Virus record (IMG/VR): IMGVR_UViG_3300033997_000478
Coordinates: 1-64,000 of that record
Origin: a virus
Strand: one strand, 5' to 3'
Length of the DNA: 64,000 nucleotides
Numbering within the stretch: position 1 is the stretch's first letter; every line of letters starts with the position of its first letter. Positions 2,896 to 63,168 of the stretch are shown here, piece after piece. A model generated the notes under the pieces. The model searched no databases, was not told where the DNA came from, and was given only the letters and a program-made list of their open reading frames with translations. The translations under genes and the position numbers were made by a program.

Positions 2896-4225
2896 TAATG
2901 GTTCTATTGAATACCTGTTAAGTTAACACTCCTATCTTATGGATGAGAGGAGATTGAGAGATGAAAAATTTGAGGTTCTTGCCGGGGTTGAGTAAATACG
3001 GCTTTAGCGAAAGTGGCCGTATATTCAGCTTCCGCACACACCGGTGGTTGAAGTACAGTAAAGACACAAATGGGTACTTCACCCTACTGCTGATAAATGA
3101 TGACGGGGTTTCATCCCGATACCTCCGACATCGGTTACTGGCACGACTATTTTTGGGCGAACCCAATTCACCCGAATTGCTAGTTAATCACAAAAACGGC
3201 ATAAAGGGCGATGATCGCATCGATAATCTTGAGTGGGTATCACCAACCGAGAATGTCGAGCATGCGGGGGCAATGGGCCTCACACCCAAATGCTTTCCTA
3301 TTTCTGTTCGCCATGTATCAGACGGCACGATCCACCACTACCCAAGCGCTGTCGCAGCGGCGCGCGCTCTCGGCATGAGTAAAGATGCGATCCTGTGGAG
3401 GATTCATGGCGACCCCGACGCCGTCTATCCTGAAGGACGTCAGTATCGTAAGCGCGATGATAATGCAACCTGGTTAACCGGACCTCGTAAAAATGGGCGA
3501 TCGGTGGTTACCCTCATGCGCGACATTCAAACCGGTGACGTTCTACGTTTCGAGCAGCAGGGGAAAGTGGCTGAGTTACTCTCATTGAGTTTGGCGGCCG
3601 TCAACAAGGCAGCCGGCGATGGGAGGCAGCGGTTACTTCATTCTAGGTATCTCTTGAAGCTAGAGGGAGATCCGACCCCATGGCGCGAGATCTCCAACCC
3701 AATGTTGGAAGGGGTGGGGTGTTGTGTGGTTGTCACACACGCTTCAACCGGCAATACACAGACCTTTAACACAGCCAAGGAGTGCGCTGAGGTGATGGGT
3801 CTGAAAGCAACAACTCTCAATGAACGACTTAACAAGGGCGGGCAACGTATCTATGCCGACGGGTACAGCTACAGCCGCCTGTAGAATCCTAGTCCATCTT
3901 CTAGGCGACTAGAAGAATGAATGTCCTTTAATTGCTGGAAACCCCTTAGAGCCACGCTACCACTGCGAGACGAAAGTCAAAGCCACTCCGTAAGGAGGTA
4001 CCCGTCCGTCAGGGCGAGTATGGTTAGAAAAGTGCGTGGATTGGGCAATCAGCAGCCAAGCTCCGTGTAGGAGAAGGTTCAACGACTAAGGCCTTATCAG
4101 CCTGTAGGGTCAAGTGGCCCGAAATGGGGACCCTCTCTCGAAGAGGAAGATATAGTCTCGTCTGCATGGAAACATGCAGCCGCCTTAGGGCGGGTGGTGT
4201 CTAACGAACACCATCGAAGATAACG
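2896..4225 (+). ncRNA. Group I self-splicing intron (T4 td-like core) inside the beta-subunit gene
   Basis: The stretch 3929-4160 carries the conserved core of a phage group I intron: P-like AATTGCTGGAAACCCC near 3930, R-like AATCAGCAGCCAAGCTCC at 4047, GGTTCAACGACTA at 4076, and S-like AAGATATAGTCT at 4147. These closely resemble the T4 td core as known. The best in-frame splice is after T2895 (exon GATGAT, intron TAATGG) and after G4225 (intron end ATAACG, exon GGCAAG); it joins ...NDD to GKRVNF. Bases 2889-2895 can pair imperfectly with 2901-2909 as a P1 helix with a U.G pair at the splice site. The 3' splice position is less certain: G4216 or G4219 also keep the frame. The intron is about 1.33 kb, and an HNH gene fills its 5' half. 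Confidence 0.9.
2961..3884 (+). CDS. Intron-encoded HNH homing endonuclease
   Basis: The 307-residue product has the I-HmuI-like HNH signature VNHKNGIKGDDRIDNLEWVS near residues 75-95, followed by TENVEHA. An N-terminal NUMOD4-like segment precedes it, and the C-terminal half carries repeated small helix-turn-helix (NUMOD1-like) units, for example around SAVAAARALGMSKDAILWRI and NTAKECAEVMGLKATTL. Such proteins nick or cut intronless alleles so that the intron is copied in. The ATG at 2961 has AGGAG upstream (2947-2951). Base composition is clearly more AT-rich than the flanking exons, as expected for a mobile gene. The ORF lies between the 5' splice site and the ribozyme core, so its translation must be compatible with splicing. 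Confidence 0.92.
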   Translation: MKNLRFLPGLSKYGFSESGRIFSFRTHRWLKYSKDTNGYFTLLLINDDGVSSRYLRHRLLARLFLGEPNSPELLVNHKNGIKGDDRIDNLEWVSPTENVEHAGAMGLTPKCFPISVRHVSDGTIHHYPSAVAAARALGMSKDAILWRIHGDPDAVYPEGRQYRKRDDNATWLTGPRKNGRSVVTLMRDIQTGDVLRFEQQGKVAELLSLSLAAVNKAAGDGRQRLLHSRYLLKLEGDPTPWREISNPMLEGVGCCVVVTHASTGNTQTFNTAKECAEVMGLKATTLNERLNKGGQRIYADGYSYSRL

Positions 4226-5350
4226 GGCAAGCGCGTGAACTTCATTCCGATCCAGCACTCCTCCGGTACGTTCTGCAAGGGCGCCAAGCCCACGCCGCTG
4301 CATACCGGTGCCGACATGGTCATGGCCCACCGCACCGATCGTGCGTTCTCGGTGCCGGCCATCAAGGACGGTGTGGTGACCTCGCTGAATGAACGCGGCA
4401 TGGTGGTGACCTACGAAGACGGTACGACCGAGAACATCGCCCTGGGCCGTCGTTACGGCAAGGCGCAAGGTCTGTACTTCCCGCAGAACCTGACCACCCA
4501 GCTGGAGTTGAACCAGCCGGTCAAGGTGGGTGACATCATCGCCTACAACGACCGCTACTTCCAGCCGGACCGCATGGTCAAGAACCAAGTGGTGTGGAAG
4601 GCGGGTCTGTTGGTGCTCACCGCACTGATGGAAACTCCCGACACCCTGGAAGACTCCTCGGTGATCTCCGCCGAAGTGGCGAAGGAACTGGAGACTGAAA
4701 TCACCTACATTCGCGACATCACTGTGCAGTTCAAACAGGCCGTTCATGGCCTGGTAGAACCGGGCCAGGTGGTGGACATCAACAGTATCCTATGTACGAT
4801 TGAGGACGCTGTGACGGCCGAAAATCAGCTGTTCGACGAGCCTTCGTTGGACATGTTGCGTCTGCTGTCGTCCAACACGCCGCGAGCCAAGTACAAGGGT
4901 GTGGTCGAAAAGGTCGAAGTGCTCTACCACGGTGACATGGACGATATGTCCGACACCCTGCAAGAGATCACTGCCCTGTCCGATCGTGAGCGTAAGCGAG
5001 CCGCCCGTGCCCTCCAACAACCGGCCGTTCTCGGCCGCGTCAACGAGTCGGCACGTATCCAAGGTAAGCCTCTGCCGGTGGATTCCTTGGTCATTCGCGT
5101 GTACATCACCAGCCCCACGGCTGCCGGTGTCGGCGATAAGGGCGTGTTCGCCAACCAGATGAAGACCATCTTCGGCCGCGTCATGAATGGGCGCAACGAA
5201 ACTGCCGATGGTCGTCCGCTGGGTGCGATCTTCAGTTACCAGAGTCTGTCCAACCGTATCGTGCTCTCCCCAGAGAAGATCGGTTTGACCAATTCGCTTC
5301 TGATTGAAATTTCCAAACGCGCCGCCAAGGCGTATCGAGGCAACCGATGA
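4226..5350 (+). CDS. RNA polymerase beta subunit (probably virion RNAP), exon 2
   Basis: This exon encodes the catalytic C-terminal part of the beta subunit, about 374 residues. It starts with GKRVNFIPIQHSSG, equivalent to RpoB ASLIPFLEHDDANRA, followed by KDGVVTSL (RpoB KRGGVVQYV) and GDIIAYNDRYF (RpoB GDVLADGPSTD). The segment GVGDKGVFANQMKTIFGRVM corresponds to RpoB PGDKMAGRHGNKGVIS, and SYQSLSNRIVLSPEKIG to the VLNPLGVPSRMNIGQ region. A GTG at 4235 lies in this frame but has no ribosome-binding site and sits inside a conserved motif, so independent translation is unlikely; the exon is expected to be read only after splicing. The stop overlaps the ATG of the next gene (ATGA). Confidence 0.88.
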   Translation, partial: GKRVNFIPIQHSSGTFCKGAKPTPLHTGADMVMAHRTDRAFSVPAIKDGVVTSLNERGMVVTYEDGTTENIALGRRYGKAQGLYFPQNLTTQLELNQPVKVGDIIAYNDRYFQPDRMVKNQVVWKAGLLVLTALMETPDTLEDSSVISAEVAKELETEITYIRDITVQFKQAVHGLVEPGQVVDINSILCTIEDAVTAENQLFDEPSLDMLRLLSSNTPRAKYKGVVEKVEVLYHGDMDDMSDTLQEITALSDRERKRAARALQQPAVLGRVNESARIQGKPLPVDSLVIRVYITSPTAAGVGDKGVFANQMKTIFGRVMNGRNETADGRPLGAIFSYQSLSNRIVLSPEKIGLTNSLLIEISKRAAKAYRGNR

Positions 5351-9007: not shown

Positions 9008-9427
9008 ATGGCATCTCTCAGCCGCCACGAAGTCAAAGAGCTGATCGCGAAGTTCAAGGAAAAGCACTTCCCCAAGTACAAGCCGGGGACCCAGTTGGTC
9101 GATCACATCGGTAACGGCGATACGCTGTACCCCGAGATCGGTCCACTGGAACACGAGCTGGACCACACCACCGGCCCGCTGGGTCCGTGTGTCAAGAACC
9201 GGGCGCGCATCCTCAAGCACTTCATCGAGATGCCGGCCGGGCCCGAGGTGTTGCAGATGTTCAACTTCGCCATGCATCGTGTCCGCTACGAAGGCGATGC
9301 CACGCGCGTGATCAAGCGCTTGCGCATCGACTGGACTGCGCACAAGAAGCAGCAGGACGAGCAGCTCAAGAAGCTGCCGAAGGTGATGGCCGAGATCAAC
9401 GAGGCCGAACGCCGCCTGTCGGCCTGA
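9008..9427 (+). CDS. Hypothetical protein (139 aa)
   Basis: ATG 9008 is preceded by AAGGAG (8994-8999). The product is highly charged: a Lys-rich N-terminal third (RHEVKELIAKFKEKHFPKYK) and a helical, Lys/Gln/Glu-rich C-terminal third that could form a coiled coil (KKQQDEQLKKLPKVMAEINE). The middle has a His/Asp-containing GPLEHELDHTTGP segment. No domain is recognised. The gene ends just before a perfect terminator hairpin. Confidence 0.75.
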   Translation: MASLSRHEVKELIAKFKEKHFPKYKPGTQLVDHIGNGDTLYPEIGPLEHELDHTTGPLGPCVKNRARILKHFIEMPAGPEVLQMFNFAMHRVRYEGDATRVIKRLRIDWTAHKKQQDEQLKKLPKVMAEINEAERRLSA

Positions 9428-9454: not shown

Positions 9455-9476
9455 TCTTATGCTCGCAAGGAATGAC

Positions 9477-9935
9477 ATGATTATCTCGGAACAACGGGAA
9501 GATCTGTTTCGGTGCCGTATGCAATGCCTGATATGTAGTGTTAATACGATCGGCGCCATGGGCAAGGGCATTGCAGTGGAGTTCCGCAATCGCGTACCGG
9601 GTCTCTACCGTTTCTACCAAGGCATCTACAACGACATCCCGCCCAACTACCACAAGATCCATCGTCTGGAAGTGTTTGACGTGGATGACAAGCGTAAGGT
9701 GTTGTTGTTTCCCACCAAAGACAACTGGCGCTTTCCGTCCAAGCTGCCAATGATCGATGCGAACCTGCGACAGCTCGCAGAACGCTACGAAGAATTCGGC
9801 ATCACCTCCATCGGCCTGCCCCTGATCGGGTGTGGGCACAACACCGGTCAGCTCAACTGGGAACAGCAGGTTCGTCCATTGGTTTATCAGCACTTGGACC
9901 CACTTCCCATTCCAGTCAAGATCTGCATCGGATAA
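9477..9935 (+). CDS. DarG-like macro-domain protein (candidate ADP-ribosyl-DNA hydrolase, anti-DarTG)
   Basis: The 152-residue protein is a stand-alone macro domain. Ligand-loop features are visible in order: VNTIGAMGKGIAVEF (residues 22-36), FPTKDNWRFPSKL (78-90) and PLIGCGHNTGQLNW (115-128). This combination (VN-x-G-MGKGIA, PTK-x-x-W-R, then a Gly-rich loop ending in L-x-W) is typical of the DarG antitoxin macro domain, which removes ADP-ribose from thymidine in DNA after modification by the DarT toxin. ATG 9477 is preferred over ATG 9459 because AAGGAA (9467-9472) lies just before it. DarG's C-terminal DarT-binding domain is absent and there is no darT next to it, which suits an anti-defence enzyme better than a toxin-antitoxin pair. 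Another ADP-ribose substrate cannot be excluded. Confidence 0.82.
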   Translation: MIISEQREDLFRCRMQCLICSVNTIGAMGKGIAVEFRNRVPGLYRFYQGIYNDIPPNYHKIHRLEVFDVDDKRKVLLFPTKDNWRFPSKLPMIDANLRQLAERYEEFGITSIGLPLIGCGHNTGQLNWEQQVRPLVYQHLDPLPIPVKICIG

Positions 9936-9948
9936 CAAGGATTCAGCA

Positions 9949-10851
9949 ATGAGCAATATCGTCAGCCTTGACAAGTTCAAAACCGGTCGTAACTTGGACT
10001 CCGTGACGGCCTGGTTCGAGCAGTTTGCAACCGGTCCGGTATTCATGGAAATCATCCGCGGTGCTTTCGAAGCCCACTCAGATATTGACGGTGAGTATAC
10101 CCTACCGTTTAGCATCAGCGCACCGCGCATGGTGGCCGGTCAGTCACTTGACATGTGTTTCTATCGGGACGATCAGGAGTTCAGCAGTCTCACTCTAGGT
10201 TGGATGGCGGCGCCGGCGTTCGCCACTTTCGGTGTGATCCAATCCATGACACCGACCCTGGTGGAAACCACCGATCAAAGCAAGGCTTACCTGCAAAAAA
10301 CTATCGGTGAAATGCTGCTGTCCCTGAACGTCTATACCAACTTCGGTGGTGTGGGCAACTTGCTTTCCATGGCAGTTTGCCTGCTCACCGAAATGGTCAA
10401 GAGAACCGGGATGATCCACGAATACGTGGCGCCGGATGGGGATCATTTCTTCACCGCTTTCGTCACGGAGGACGGGGCTGATCCGAATGACGTAGAGCCG
10501 GAAGTTCTCACGCTGCGCATCAAGCATCAAGAATACAATCTGGTCAAGGGCCGCTTGCGGGCGCTGATGAAAACGCAGATGCCCGCAAGAGGTCCTAGCT
10601 GGGAAAATGTCGAGGGCGGCAAGATTCGTGCCAAGATTGTTTCCAGTAAGAAGCCTGAGAGTCCCCTCTTCAAGAGAGGCAAGGACAAACAAATCAACAA
10701 GTGGATCGGCGAAATCCTTACCGAGGAGATCGTCGGTAATGATCGCACTGCGATGGAGCGGTATGTCCGCAACCTTCTGTGCTGGCACGAACACTACGCC
10801 ACTTACTACAACATCGAAGGATGGTCCTATGAAGTTTCTTGGAAGGGATGA
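9949..10851 (+). CDS. Hypothetical protein (300 aa)
   Basis: ATG 9949 is selected because AAGG precedes it and it follows the macro-domain stop by 13 bases; the frame is open further upstream but overlaps the macro gene. The product begins with a short SLDKFKTGRN segment, has hydrophobic stretches (residues 80-100 and 125-150) without clear transmembrane character, and a basic C-terminal third. It overlaps the next gene by 23 bases, so the two are likely co-translated. No domain is recognised. Confidence 0.7.
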   Translation: MSNIVSLDKFKTGRNLDSVTAWFEQFATGPVFMEIIRGAFEAHSDIDGEYTLPFSISAPRMVAGQSLDMCFYRDDQEFSSLTLGWMAAPAFATFGVIQSMTPTLVETTDQSKAYLQKTIGEMLLSLNVYTNFGGVGNLLSMAVCLLTEMVKRTGMIHEYVAPDGDHFFTAFVTEDGADPNDVEPEVLTLRIKHQEYNLVKGRLRALMKTQMPARGPSWENVEGGKIRAKIVSSKKPESPLFKRGKDKQINKWIGEILTEEIVGNDRTAMERYVRNLLCWHEHYATYYNIEGWSYEVSWKG

Positions 10852-29728: not shown

Positions 29729-30289
29729 ATGACATCACATGGCATGAGTTACACGGCGGAATATTCAGCTTGGCGAGAAGCGAAATACCGGTGCATTCGA
29801 GCAACCCACCAGAACTATCCACATTACGGAGGCCGGGGTATTCGGATGTGTGAACGGTGGTTGGAATCTTTCGAGGCCTTCTTCGCAGACATGGGTCCCC
29901 GCCCCAGTGAAGACCATTCCCTCAATCGAATCAATAACGATGGTGACTATGAGCCGGGGAATTGTGAATGGGCTACTCTCAAAGAGCAGGCTCGCAATAA
30001 AACCAACAATCGCAAATTCCACCACGATGGGATCGACAAGACGGTAGCTCAGTTGGCCGAGGAACGTGGCCTGAGTCCCCATCGCGTTTTCCAGCGGCTG
30101 GATCAACAAGGCGATTCGCTTGAACGGGCCCTAAGACCGGTCAAGGTCCGACCTGTCTATAGTCACGATGGGAAGTCTTTAACGCTCAGCGAGTGGTCAA
30201 AGGTGACAGGTATTCGGACATCTACTCTTCATCGAAGAATTCACGATCTCGGCTGGTCTGTAAGCAAAGCGCTCACCACTCCGACTTGA
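29729..30289 (+). CDS. Free-standing HNH endonuclease (186 aa)
   Basis: The protein matches the common phage HNH type: YGGRGIRMCERW (residues 33-44), DMGPRPSEDHSLNRINNDGD (54-73, with the catalytic His and metal ligands) and YEPGNCEWATLKEQARNKTN. Two C-terminal NUMOD/helix-turn-helix-like units follow (VAQLAEERGLSPHRVFQRL; LSEWSKVTGIRTSTLHRRI), used for target binding. It is not within a gene or visible intron. Base composition is more AT-rich than its surroundings, consistent with recent transfer. A paralogue lies at 62587. Confidence 0.9.
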   Translation: MTSHGMSYTAEYSAWREAKYRCIRATHQNYPHYGGRGIRMCERWLESFEAFFADMGPRPSEDHSLNRINNDGDYEPGNCEWATLKEQARNKTNNRKFHHDGIDKTVAQLAEERGLSPHRVFQRLDQQGDSLERALRPVKVRPVYSHDGKSLTLSEWSKVTGIRTSTLHRRIHDLGWSVSKALTTPT

Positions 30290-31288: not shown

Positions 31289-31876
31289 ATGGCTTCAATG
31301 GTTGCAAAGATCAAAGACATGACCGGTGAGCGGTTTGGTCTACTGACGGTGATCGGAATGCATCCGCACCGCAACAGATTCAAGCAGGTCATGTGGGACT
31401 GCCGCTGCGATTGCGGCAACATGATCGCCTACAGCGGATGCCTGCTGCGGATCAACAACATCGTCCACTGCGGCAAATGCCCCTATCGCATCCTGGGTTA
31501 CGCCAAGGGGTCGATCCGCTTGGCATGGCTGGAGGTTCTCAAGGACCTGCACAAGGTGTACATCGACCCCAAGTGGGTTATGTCGATCATCGAGTTCTAC
31601 AAAGACGTTGGCGACCGACCCAGCGCAGATCACGCGCTGGAGCGCATCGATCCTAAAGGTCCATACGTCAAGAACAACATGCGGTGGGTAGACGGTCTGG
31701 CCCACCGGCGCCAGCCGCGTTACCTGTTCATGGGCGAGAGCGTGTCGTGTGCGGAGCTGGCTCGTAAGTTTGGCATTACTCGACAGGCGATGAGTCAAGG
31801 CTTGAAGTCTGGCTGGACGATGGCCCAGCTCGAAAAGCGCTACCGCAAACAGCAAGCCGAAATGAGCAGCAAATAA
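31289..31876 (+). CDS. Zinc-ribbon HNH-type endonuclease-like protein (195 aa)
   Basis: The N-terminus has the GERFGLLTVI pattern followed by WDCRCDCG and HCGKCPY, a four-Cys zinc ribbon seen in many phage HNH/AP2-type endonucleases. Residues 109-130 (GDRPSADHALERIDPKGPYV and KNNMRWVD) match the HNH core found in the 29729 and 62587 proteins. A C-terminal helix-turn-helix (CAELARKFGITRQAMSQGL) would bind DNA. The third metal ligand is not obvious, so activity is uncertain. The start may be ATG 31298 instead of 31289. It is free-standing, not in an intron. Confidence 0.78.
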   Translation: MASMVAKIKDMTGERFGLLTVIGMHPHRNRFKQVMWDCRCDCGNMIAYSGCLLRINNIVHCGKCPYRILGYAKGSIRLAWLEVLKDLHKVYIDPKWVMSIIEFYKDVGDRPSADHALERIDPKGPYVKNNMRWVDGLAHRRQPRYLFMGESVSCAELARKFGITRQAMSQGLKSGWTMAQLEKRYRKQQAEMSSK

Positions 31877-47090: not shown

Positions 47091-49019
47091 ATGGCCACCA
47101 ACACCCCGAACGACAACAACAACGAAACCGGCACCACCAGCGCAGAAGCCATCTTCAACCGCAACTCCGGCAACACCGCCGGTGCCCAGAACGCCGGTGG
47201 CAGCCAGAGCGGCGGCTTCAACCGCAATGCCGGCCGCGCTGCCCGTCCGGGCCTGACCGCTCGCCTGAGCGGCGCACGTGGCGTGGTCTCGCGCCGCCGT
47301 CCGGGTGCCGAACTGGAAGTCATGCGCAAGGCCTTCGAAGAGGCCCTGAGCCAGTTCCACACCTCCGGCCGCCTGCAGGGCGGTGAGAACCTGAAGCTGA
47401 TGCTGATCGATCGCCAGGAACTGGACCGCAAGGTCGAGCTGCTGGTTGCCTACATCCCGATGACCGTCGACAACCAGCTGCACGTGTCGATCTACACCGT
47501 GATCCTGGCCGACCAGAGCGAGAACCTGGACAGCATCAAGTTCCAGGGCACCGGCGGCCGCAACTTCGCCTACACCGTGACCGCAGGCGACGCCTGGGAT
47601 CGCAACCTGTGGGTGAAGGTCGCAGCGATCGTGCAGGAAAACATGGGCGCTGTCGCCATCCAGCACAACGCCGGCGCGCAGGTCATCCCGGCCGAAACCG
47701 ACGTCACCGACAAGGGCCTGATCCACGGCCTGGCGTTCTTCGTCTCCGAAGGCCTGACCCGCACCATCACCGACAAGATCCTGAAGTCCACCGATGACGT
47801 GATCTCGGTCGCCGACATCGGCGACGACGAAATCGTCGAAGGCAAGCTGGTCTACAGCACCCTGCCGCTGACCACCGCCGCCGGCCTGCCGCTGCGTGGT
47901 GACATCCAGGCCAAGCTGAGCTACAGCCAGCGCGGCAACGAGGGTGACCAGCGTGAACGTGCCTTCAGCCTGGACAACAGCCGTCCGCTGGCCGGCGCCG
48001 CCGGCTTCATCGACCTGGGCTGGGAAGACCCGCAGCAGCCGGCCTTCGGCCAGCAGCCGGCCACCCAGCGCTACCGTGCACGCTTCGTCATGACCCGCCT
48101 GGACACCGAAGGTGACTGGATCACCCCGGAACTGCAGCTGCTGTCGCTGGCCGGCGCCACCCTGGTGGCACGTCAGATGGCCTGGGCTCGCATCTGGTCG
48201 CAGGAGTTCCGTACCAAGGAACACGACATCGGCGTGATCGGCTACGAGCTGGCTCCGGGTGGCGAAGCTGAGCGCATCAACACCTCGGCCGCAGCCTTCA
48301 CCAACGAAGCGCTGTACCAGCTGGTGTCGGCGACCATCTACCCGGACATCCTGTTCCAGCTGGACATCGAAGAAGTCGGCGAGCTGTCGTTCCAGAACCG
48401 CGTGCTGCTCGACGCTGCCAACAACAACGCCGATGCGCAGGACGCCGTGATCGCGGCCGCCAACAACCTGACCAACAACGAGTTCACCCGTCTGTGGCAG
48501 GCCGGCACCCCGTTCGTCATGAACGATGGCAACCGCATCCACCTGGGCTACTACGAAGCCAACGACGGTCAGCGTCGTGACATCCGTGACCTGGACTACC
48601 TGTTCATGCTGGAGCGCTTCGGCGCGCAGGATCCGAAGATGGTCGAGCGCTGGCAGGCGACCTTCGACGACGTCGAACGCGACGAAGTCGAGCGTGTGGC
48701 TGAGCGTGAAGACATGATCCGCAAGATCCTGGGCCCGACGGTGACCATCACCGGCTACGCTCGTCGCGTGACCTTCCACCCGCAGGCCCTGGACGTCCTG
48801 CTGGCCGCTTGCGGCGCAGCCGGCCTGACCATCCGTCAGGACTCGCAGTCCTACGGCTTCACCGGTTCGGCCGCTCGCGGTCGTGCTTCGGGCGGTGCCT
48901 TCGCCTTCGGCGGCGGCGCTACGAACAACCTGTTCAGCTCGGGCGTCACCGGCAGCCGTGGTCGCGGCTTCGGCTCCACCTTCACCGGTGGTTCGACCTG
49001 GCGTGGTCGCGGTAACTGA
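47091..49019 (+). CDS. chmA: Putative phage nuclear shell protein (chimallin, ChmA)
   Basis: The 642-residue protein has the size of known chimallins (about 630 residues) and lies immediately upstream of the RNA polymerase beta-prime N-terminal gene, as phiKZ gp54 does next to gp55. Codon use is the strictest in the window, as expected for the most abundant early protein. The first 65 residues and the last 50 look disordered and are rich in Gly, Arg, Asn and Ser (GSRGRGFGSTFTGGSTWRGR), while the middle is a folded alpha/beta core. Chimallin assembles into a one-protein-thick lattice that encloses phage DNA. I could not align the core to a known chimallin, so the call rests on size, context and abundance; another abundant phage protein is possible. 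Confidence 0.65.
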   Translation: MATNTPNDNNNETGTTSAEAIFNRNSGNTAGAQNAGGSQSGGFNRNAGRAARPGLTARLSGARGVVSRRRPGAELEVMRKAFEEALSQFHTSGRLQGGENLKLMLIDRQELDRKVELLVAYIPMTVDNQLHVSIYTVILADQSENLDSIKFQGTGGRNFAYTVTAGDAWDRNLWVKVAAIVQENMGAVAIQHNAGAQVIPAETDVTDKGLIHGLAFFVSEGLTRTITDKILKSTDDVISVADIGDDEIVEGKLVYSTLPLTTAAGLPLRGDIQAKLSYSQRGNEGDQRERAFSLDNSRPLAGAAGFIDLGWEDPQQPAFGQQPATQRYRARFVMTRLDTEGDWITPELQLLSLAGATLVARQMAWARIWSQEFRTKEHDIGVIGYELAPGGEAERINTSAAAFTNEALYQLVSATIYPDILFQLDIEEVGELSFQNRVLLDAANNNADAQDAVIAAANNLTNNEFTRLWQAGTPFVMNDGNRIHLGYYEANDGQRRDIRDLDYLFMLERFGAQDPKMVERWQATFDDVERDEVERVAEREDMIRKILGPTVTITGYARRVTFHPQALDVLLAACGAAGLTIRQDSQSYGFTGSAARGRASGGAFAFGGGATNNLFSSGVTGSRGRGFGSTFTGGSTWRGRGN

Positions 49020-62586: not shown

Positions 62587-63168
62587 ATGCACAAAACCAA
62601 ATCGCCGAATTACCAGCGTTGGGTCATGATGGTGCGCAGATGCACCAATCCCCAAGACCCCTCATACGGAAACTACGGTGCACGTGGTATTCGAGTTTGC
62701 GAAAGGTGGATGTCTTTCGAGAACTTCGACGCCGACATGGGATTGCCACCAACGCCCGATCATTCGATCGAACGTCTTGACGTCAACGGCCATTATGAGC
62801 CGAACAATTGTTGTTGGGCCACTCCCCAGGAACAAGCAAGAAATCGCAGAAGTAACGTTCTGCATGAGCATGACGGGGAGAAACACTTCCTCGATGATCT
62901 GGCTGATAAGAACAACATCCCTAAGCGCACCGTGATCGATAGGATGCGTCGAAAGGGAATGAGTTTGTCCGAAGCACTGACAATGCCGAGGATGCGCGAA
63001 GACGTCTACATTGAAGTGGACGGCGTAAAGGTGAAAAGGGCTGATCTCTTGCGTAACGCCAAGATTTCCATACCCACTTTCAACAAACGACTCAGTCAAG
63101 GAATGTCGGTCGAAGAGGCACTGAAGGCGCCCGTCGTTAGGGGTCGCCCGCGTAAAACACCTAAGTAG
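62587..63168 (+). CDS. Free-standing HNH endonuclease (193 aa)
   Basis: The protein has the same build as the 29729 endonuclease: YGARGIRVCERW (residues 31-42), DMGLPPTPDHSIERLDVNGH (50-69) and YEPNNCCWATPQEQARN. Two helix-turn-helix-like units follow (LADKNNIPKRTVIDRMRRKG; LRNAKISIPTFNKRLSQGMS). It lies just upstream of the RNA polymerase beta C-terminal gene. In phiKZ an HNH gene (gp72) interrupts that same polymerase gene (gp71-73); here it sits beside it. AT-rich composition marks it as mobile. No ribosome-binding site is obvious (ATTGTA before ATG). Confidence 0.9.
   Translation: MHKTKSPNYQRWVMMVRRCTNPQDPSYGNYGARGIRVCERWMSFENFDADMGLPPTPDHSIERLDVNGHYEPNNCCWATPQEQARNRRSNVLHEHDGEKHFLDDLADKNNIPKRTVIDRMRRKGMSLSEALTMPRMREDVYIEVDGVKVKRADLLRNAKISIPTFNKRLSQGMSVEEALKAPVVRGRPRKTPK

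Follow-up and report, generated by a model that had tools for sequence, protein, structure and literature searches.

A stand-alone phage macrodomain of the DarG type lies in a phage-only clade among DarT-linked antitoxins and may reverse DNA ADP-ribosylation

Here, we report that a gene at positions 9477..9935 (+ strand) of the window, that is, the whole stretch of 64,000 nucleotides analysed, encodes a stand-alone macrodomain of 152 amino acids. From its sequence and its predicted fold, the assignment of this protein to the DarG-type macrodomains, together with a likely hydrolase chemistry, is well supported. While phage macrodomains are common and a DNA-erasing role has already been allowed for in print, so that the idea itself is not new, what is added here is a phage-only clade among DarGs and its sequence signatures. 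As for function, we see about even chances that the protein is a hydrolase that would reverse DarT-like DNA ADP-ribosylation during infection and thereby act against DarTG-carrying hosts. The window is part of a virus record of 324,428 bases, the completeness of which is not stated.

The macrodomain gene

The reading frame is complete, from an ATG at 9477 to a stop at 9935. An alternative upstream ATG at 9459 would give a protein of 158 amino acids; we prefer the ATG at 9477 because it follows an AAGGA (9467..9471, + strand), its likely ribosome-binding site, and because the alignment with the homologue of Xanthomonas phage LucasX begins at this same methionine. A codon-usage gene caller favoured a start at 9558, which was overruled by the homology found across the first 27 residues.

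Two further viral contigs, L012 and L013, carry DNA identical to the gene over all of its 459 bases, and the LucasX protein is 64% identical. In the ten gene pairs compared, three of which include the window gene, pN is always below pS (0.23 versus 0.81 for the window and LucasX pair). The dN/dS ratio ranges from 0.03 to 0.14 in five unsaturated pairs, none of them with the window gene, dS being saturated in the other five. Since pN is below pS and the gene has been retained through a relocation (see below), it is, as judged from these comparisons, under purifying selection. Together with the complete frame and the profile matches described hereafter, these ratios establish that the ORF singled out in the original prediction is real.

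A macrodomain closest to DarG

The Pfam Macro profile recognises the protein at 22.7 bits, barely exceeding its cut-off of 22. The PADLOC DarG profile matches it at an E-value of 6.6e-33, the match covering positions 2-142 of the 329 in that profile, and the NCBIfam DarG profile scores 105.1 bits, missing the full-length cut-off of 250 because only the first half of that family is matched. The match to the macrodomain family is beyond chance. In a sequence search of the PDB, the top three chains belong to DarG or DarTG. The PHROG name of the protein is 'phosphatase', as for Appr-1''-phosphate phosphatases of the Poa1p type.

The AlphaFold2 model has a pLDDT of 91.7 and was built from an alignment of 73 sequences, which drew on 32 of the 43 loci in the clade, 34 of the 80 cellular ones and 6 further viral loci, named phages being left out. 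The original prediction had proposed to compare the predicted structure with DarG, and this comparison went in its favour: DarG entries from three organisms hold the first four places (5m3e, Z 22.2; 5m31, 21.6; 5m3i, 21.4; 7omu, 21.3). They are followed by TARG1 (18.6), the Bacteroides protein 2fg1 (18.2) and Poa1p (entry 6lfr, 17.1, to be set against 22.2 for DarG in this comparison by fold), with SCO6735 lower at 16.0.

The protein thus shares with DarG, the DarTG2 antitoxin with solved structures from Thermus aquaticus, M. tuberculosis and Thermosipho africanus, the macrodomain fold, the catalytic lysine and the tree position. It differs from it by an insert in loop 3, by Cys20 and Leu77 instead of the common Asn, by the lack of the second domain and by a record without a DarT match. 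We therefore class it as a member of the DarG macrodomain family, DarG being nearest by profile and by fold, with equivalents of the catalytic Lys, of N22 and of K29 and a grouping with DarG in rooted trees. It is not a full DarG antitoxin, as the ORF stops at 152 amino acids with no C-terminal domain, nor part of a DarTG toxin-antitoxin pair, as a search with Pfam DarT at E 0.1 was negative across the 324,428 bases of the record, which may be incomplete. DarG-type identity, on which profiles, trees, fold and catalytic lysine agree, as well as stand-alone state and absence of DarT, were all anticipated in the original prediction. At the same threshold, NADAR, KptA and YAcAr also gave no match in the record, nor did Nudix at E 0.01; all of these families were found in control genomes.

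Active site and ligand loops

In a phmmer alignment with the DarG of T. aquaticus (Taq DarG), loop 1 (VNTIGAMGKGIA, residues 22-33; 9540..9575, + strand) places N23 and K30 on N22 and K29. The FPTKDNWR motif (residues 78-85; 9708..9731, + strand) places T80, K81 and W84 on T79, the catalytic K80 and W83, the codon of K81 lying at 9717-9719. Loop 3 (GCGHNTGQLNW, residues 118-128; 9828..9860, + strand) has G118 and G120 for G117 and G119. This loop is devoid of acidic residues and carries a two-residue insert particular to the subclade of the window; Taq DarG N120 aligns with a His of the loop. It had been claimed that all three loops have the DarG pattern: this holds for loops 1 and 2, but not for loop 3, owing to its two extra residues and its His. 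Other Taq DarG residues that are changed are N8 (to D), T20 (to S), Q34 (to E) and H82 (to N). Mutagenesis of Taq DarG was reported to yield an inactive K80A, markedly impaired N22A, K29E and G119E, and little affected H82A and W83A variants; its macrodomain by itself is described as a sufficient antitoxin to DarT (PMC5179494).

Lysine 81 is found in all 50 clade sequences, in all 79 DarT-linked sequences (66 cellular, 13 viral) and in the 25 other viral ones, the clade and DarT-linked counts including duplicates here and below. Elsewhere, the clade departs from the DarT-linked sequences. Indeed, residue 20 is Asn in 79/79 of the latter, while in the clade it is Cys in 41/50, among them the window protein, and Asn in 7/50; residue 77, Asn in 60/79 DarT-linked sequences, is Leu in the window protein. 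The position of K30 is occupied by Ala in 21 and by Arg in 13 of the 50 clade sequences, and that of W84 by Thr in 13. Finally, the insert in loop 3 is present in six clade members (window, L012, L013, L014, L015 and LucasX) and in none of the 79 DarT-linked sequences. Given these differences, any assignment of the substrate is tentative.

Relatives, linkage to DarT and phylogeny

The 152-aa macrodomain is no lone oddity, as 259 of 50,697 phage records contain a macrodomain match, a range wider than the clade of the window, and, according to a survey, 56% of jumbo phages have a macrodomain (PMC9503650). To place the protein, we kept the best 80 of 344 relatives from IMG/VR and the best 80 of 581 from GTDB contigs. 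The latter were scanned with a DarG-like motif, and the DarT linkage of cellular relatives is therefore partly expected from the search. Using HMMs built from ten neighbours, all called DarT by Pfam, DarT was detected at 66 of these 80 cellular loci and 13 of these 80 viral loci, within the DNA retrieved for each. Among the viral loci without DarT, 56 have an ORF of at most 165 amino acids (two of these, L071 and L090, being cut by a contig end) and 11 a longer one. DarT adjoins none of the 43 loci of the window clade that were scanned.

In a quick tree of 179 sequences, in which the second macrodomain of the record, L199 and 17 DarG-type sequences were not included, the protein falls in a clade of 50 (SH-aLRT 97). 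Besides the window and L133, this clade holds 6 named phages, 35 viral loci of the single-domain kind and 7 longer ones. One of the longer loci, L042, is phiEco32 itself with an ORF extended upstream, and L133, a contig from a bacterial bin, carries an RNA polymerase and other genes common to the phages of the clade. A more careful tree of 120 sequences, from which seven long-branch sequences and duplicates were left out and in which the cellular sequences were randomly thinned from 80 to 40, L133 being lost thereby, recovers a phage-only clade of 40 (support 100/95) among DarT-linked sequences, with no DarG group singled out as its sister. MacroD-type sequences, the sole outgroup, fall outside at 100/100 on a long branch of 3.6. 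A closer placement with macrodomains acting on other substrates had been named as what would speak against the DarG reading; the protein instead groups with DarT-linked DarGs and far from the MacroD type, in trees that hold no TARG1- or Poa1-type sequences.

Single-domain phage versions outside the window clade also lie among DarT-linked DarGs. Along the careful tree, the single-domain phage and DarT-linked states are separated by eight changes, at least five of them on well-supported branches and gains and losses being counted alike, so that the single-domain state has changed more than once. PHIKZ104 of phiKZ (162 aa) is likewise a stand-alone phage DarG-type macrodomain with the FPTK lysine, but lies outside the window clade, on a long branch and without firm placement.

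Several minor features were noted among the relatives. In two members of the clade, the macrodomain is joined to a YAcAr (SLOG) domain, namely in Proteus phage 10 (L010:2501-3328, 24.3 bits) and in L049:6001-7287 (28.6 bits), for a cut-off of 28.2. A second, weak copy may follow the macrodomain gene of Burkholderia phage FLC9 (L006:3470-3919; phrog_335, E 0.0055). In L092, L094, L099, L103 and others, a short DarG (~283-331 aa) precedes a DarT of ~316-344 aa, whereas DarT comes first in the other arrangement; in the four loci of this kind that were compared with Pfam, the C-terminal part of DarG matches no family above cut-off.

Proposed function and alternatives

We propose that phages keep a DarG-type macrodomain hydrolase without DarT and without the second, DarT-binding domain of DarG. 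ADP-ribose would most likely be bound in the DarG pocket, Lys81 would serve to detach it from single-stranded DNA, at thymidine or at a site much like it, and host DarT-type toxins would thereby be unable to halt phage replication. That the protein is catalytic, that it acts on thymidine and that it helps against hosts with DarTG are all inferred. By analogy, an activity on thymidine-linked ADP-ribose is likely, since DarG, TARG1 and SCO6735 were all reported to have it (PMC9411070). The DarG profiles and fold, the conserved catalytic residues, the phage-only clade and the DarT-linked cellular kin count for this proposal. The residue changes relative to DarT-linked sequences, the motif-biased cellular scan and the YAcAr fusions in the clade count against it. 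Moreover, T4 NADAR is described as erasing guanine-linked ADP-ribose in vitro while leaving cells unprotected from DarT1 (PMC11125620); therefore, an erasing activity need not mean protection.

SCO6735 and human TARG1 belong to the same wider macrodomain class, have no toxin partner and reverse thymidine ADP-ribosylation, and SCO6735 was reported to rescue E. coli from DarT (PMC9411070). They differ from the window protein by being cellular, SCO6735 also by a Gln for the Lys and TARG1 by an additional catalytic Asp. On the viral side, AdfA, AdfB and phage NADARs are tied to DarT escape or to the reversal of DNA ADP-ribosylation, but AdfB is described as likely binding DarT, and NADAR as having an unrelated fold and acting on guanine-linked ADP-ribose (PMC11481870, PMC11125620). 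In the open-licence literature, among the matches listed, we found no report of a phage macrodomain assayed against DarT. Knockdown of PHIKZ104 was reported to lower chimallin weakly, with no substantial change in PFU or CFU, and its authors suggested that the protein may be useful where the host has other defences (PMC12571901). A structure survey describes viral matches to the macrodomain of DarG, not to its C-terminal part, and suggests counter-defence in eukaryotic antiviral responses while leaving room for other roles (PMC12487901).

The main alternative, which we consider unlikely, is that the protein hydrolyses small ADP-ribose derivatives (ADPr-1''-phosphate, O-acetyl-ADPr or cADPR-type signals) and thereby blunts a Thoeris-like or NAD-based defence, or recycles NAD. 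Small molecules can cross the phage nucleus, the YAcAr fusions of Proteus phage 10 and L049 point to small NAD-derived molecules, the PHROG name is in line with it, and Poa1p is among the fold neighbours (Z 17.1). A contextual argument on phage macrodomains in general has also been published (PMC9503650, PMC7824862), Iyer and colleagues proposing that they mostly act on low-molecular-weight ADP-ribose derivatives and that a few may reverse toxin-antitoxin DNA ADP-ribosylation (PMC9503650). Nonetheless, DarG leads Poa1p by 4 to 5 Z units, the DarG catalytic residues are conserved in the 152-aa protein, and the record yields no match to the YAcAr, KptA, NADAR or Nudix families.

It is rather improbable, in our estimation, that the protein strips ADP-ribose off RNA or proteins which non-DarT host toxins or the phage's own transferases have modified. 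The sequence differences between the clade and DarT-linked sequences would fit such a substrate, and TARG1, which comes next by fold (Z 18.6), is reported to act on proteins and on nucleic-acid phosphate ends, as SCO6735 does on both DNA and protein (PMC9411070); CmdTAC furthermore illustrates mRNA ADP-ribosylation in phage defence (PMC11618068). However, of the Lys/Asp dyad of TARG1, DarG is described as having the lysine only, and activity on protein as a trait of SCO6735 unlike DarG (PMC9411070), while loop 3 of the 152-aa protein lacks an acidic residue. Finally, we regard it as very improbable that the protein is an ADP-ribose binder or sensor, or a steric DarT inhibitor, rather than a hydrolase, because even if ICP1 AdfB is described as an antitoxin mimic likely working by direct interaction (PMC11481870) and an inactive SCO6735 mutant as still inhibiting DarT (PMC9411070), Lys81 is invariant across the clade, the K80A macrodomain of Taq DarG was reported to fail to inhibit DarT (PMC5179494), and the remainder of DarG is absent.

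Returning to the erasure of DarT-type DNA ADP-ribosylation, the relation to the phage nucleus has to be considered. The window phage was predicted to form a nucleus, which is supported by a gene for a 642-aa chimallin (nuclear shell) homologue at 47091..49019 (+ strand): the shell protein gp54 of phiKZ matches 47604-49001 at an E-value of 1.5e-33, with 29% over residues 158-625 of 626. The suggestion that the nucleus makes a DNA-repair enzyme a notable addition fared less well. A shell excluding host proteins may itself keep DarT off the phage DNA, and the clade includes phiEco32, a 77-kb phage which is not known to form a nucleus. Because of this clade member, we rejected a nucleus-specific function as an explanation.

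More tentatively, and with somewhat less confidence than in the proposal for the window protein itself, we suggest that a phage-borne branch of DarG-type erasers, common to nucleus-forming jumbo phages and to small phages such as phiEco32, enzymatically undoes DarT-type DNA ADP-ribosylation. Since further phage versions with a single domain occur in other places among the DarT-linked DarGs, such erasure might be a general and recurrent counter-defence, with the Asn-to-Cys exchange and the altered loop 3 having adjusted its range of substrates. Should this hold, repairing ADP-ribosylated DNA by an enzyme would be a common way for phages to answer DarTG rather than a rare trick, which would help to explain why many large phages retain a macrodomain. 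This reading separates DNA repair from the published small-molecule view of phage macrodomains and offers a direct test in the tractable phages phiEco32 and phiKZ.

Genomic surroundings and relocation of the gene

The macrodomain gene presently sits between matches to LUCX_14 and LUCX_16 of LucasX. Its upstream neighbour (139 aa; 9008..9427, + strand) matches the former, and its downstream neighbour (300 aa; 9949..10851, + strand) matches the latter through its 3' part (10579-10848). At ~81.8-90.7 kb, the window phage still has the former locus, recognisable by its matches to LUCX_91-95 and LUCX_104, and both macrodomain matches of the record are located away from it. The gene has thus been relocated within the lineage of the window phage. 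In LucasX, an HNH endonuclease gene (LUCX_96) lies between a small gene and the macrodomain gene, directly upstream of the latter. Homologues of LUCX_96 occur in the window at 29744-30286 and 62611-63135, with a weaker one at 31571-31798, and an endonuclease of this type is a possible agent of the relocation.

Gene order around the clade macrodomains is of two main types, the counts being a lower bound since starts were set by the longest ORF and L046 and L090 also carry the small-gene family. In 22 of the 49 clade loci, a small gene of the phrog_12109 type lies upstream of the macrodomain ORF, from which its end is separated by -4 to 25 bases. Another 13 have a 139-aa gene of a different family at -4 to 12 bases, and in the remaining 14 neither gene was found within the limits applied. 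The order in 13/49 loci, of the Erwinia AH06 type, is a ~461-aa gene (UvsX-like in AH06), the 139-aa gene and then the macrodomain. No homology was detected with hhalign between this pair and the upstream pair of the LucasX/FLC9 type (phrog_4585 and phrog_12109), and AH06 carries a phrog_4585-type gene elsewhere that is annotated as a baseplate protein. For these two reasons, we dropped a single DNA-repair operon based on recombinase linkage. A pairing with SLOG was likewise discarded for the 152-aa macrodomain, given the lack of a YAcAr match in its record.

A second macrodomain of another type (phrog_2613), below the Pfam cut-off, is also encoded in the record (match at 196188-196562; L005:1318-1962 corresponds to G000:C1 ~196.0-196.65 kb), and its sequence matches in the PDB are weak. 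Finally, the window harbours a group I intron at 3875-4179 (Rfam RF00028, 74.1 bits), between long ORFs at 13-2898 and 4235-5350, the second of which matches a beta-subunit family of phage RNA polymerases over its final quarter. An ORF lying between them, at 2961-3884, may encode the endonuclease of this intron. DNA similar to the intron region occurs in 73-kb Pseudomonas phages, in one of which a group I intron is annotated.
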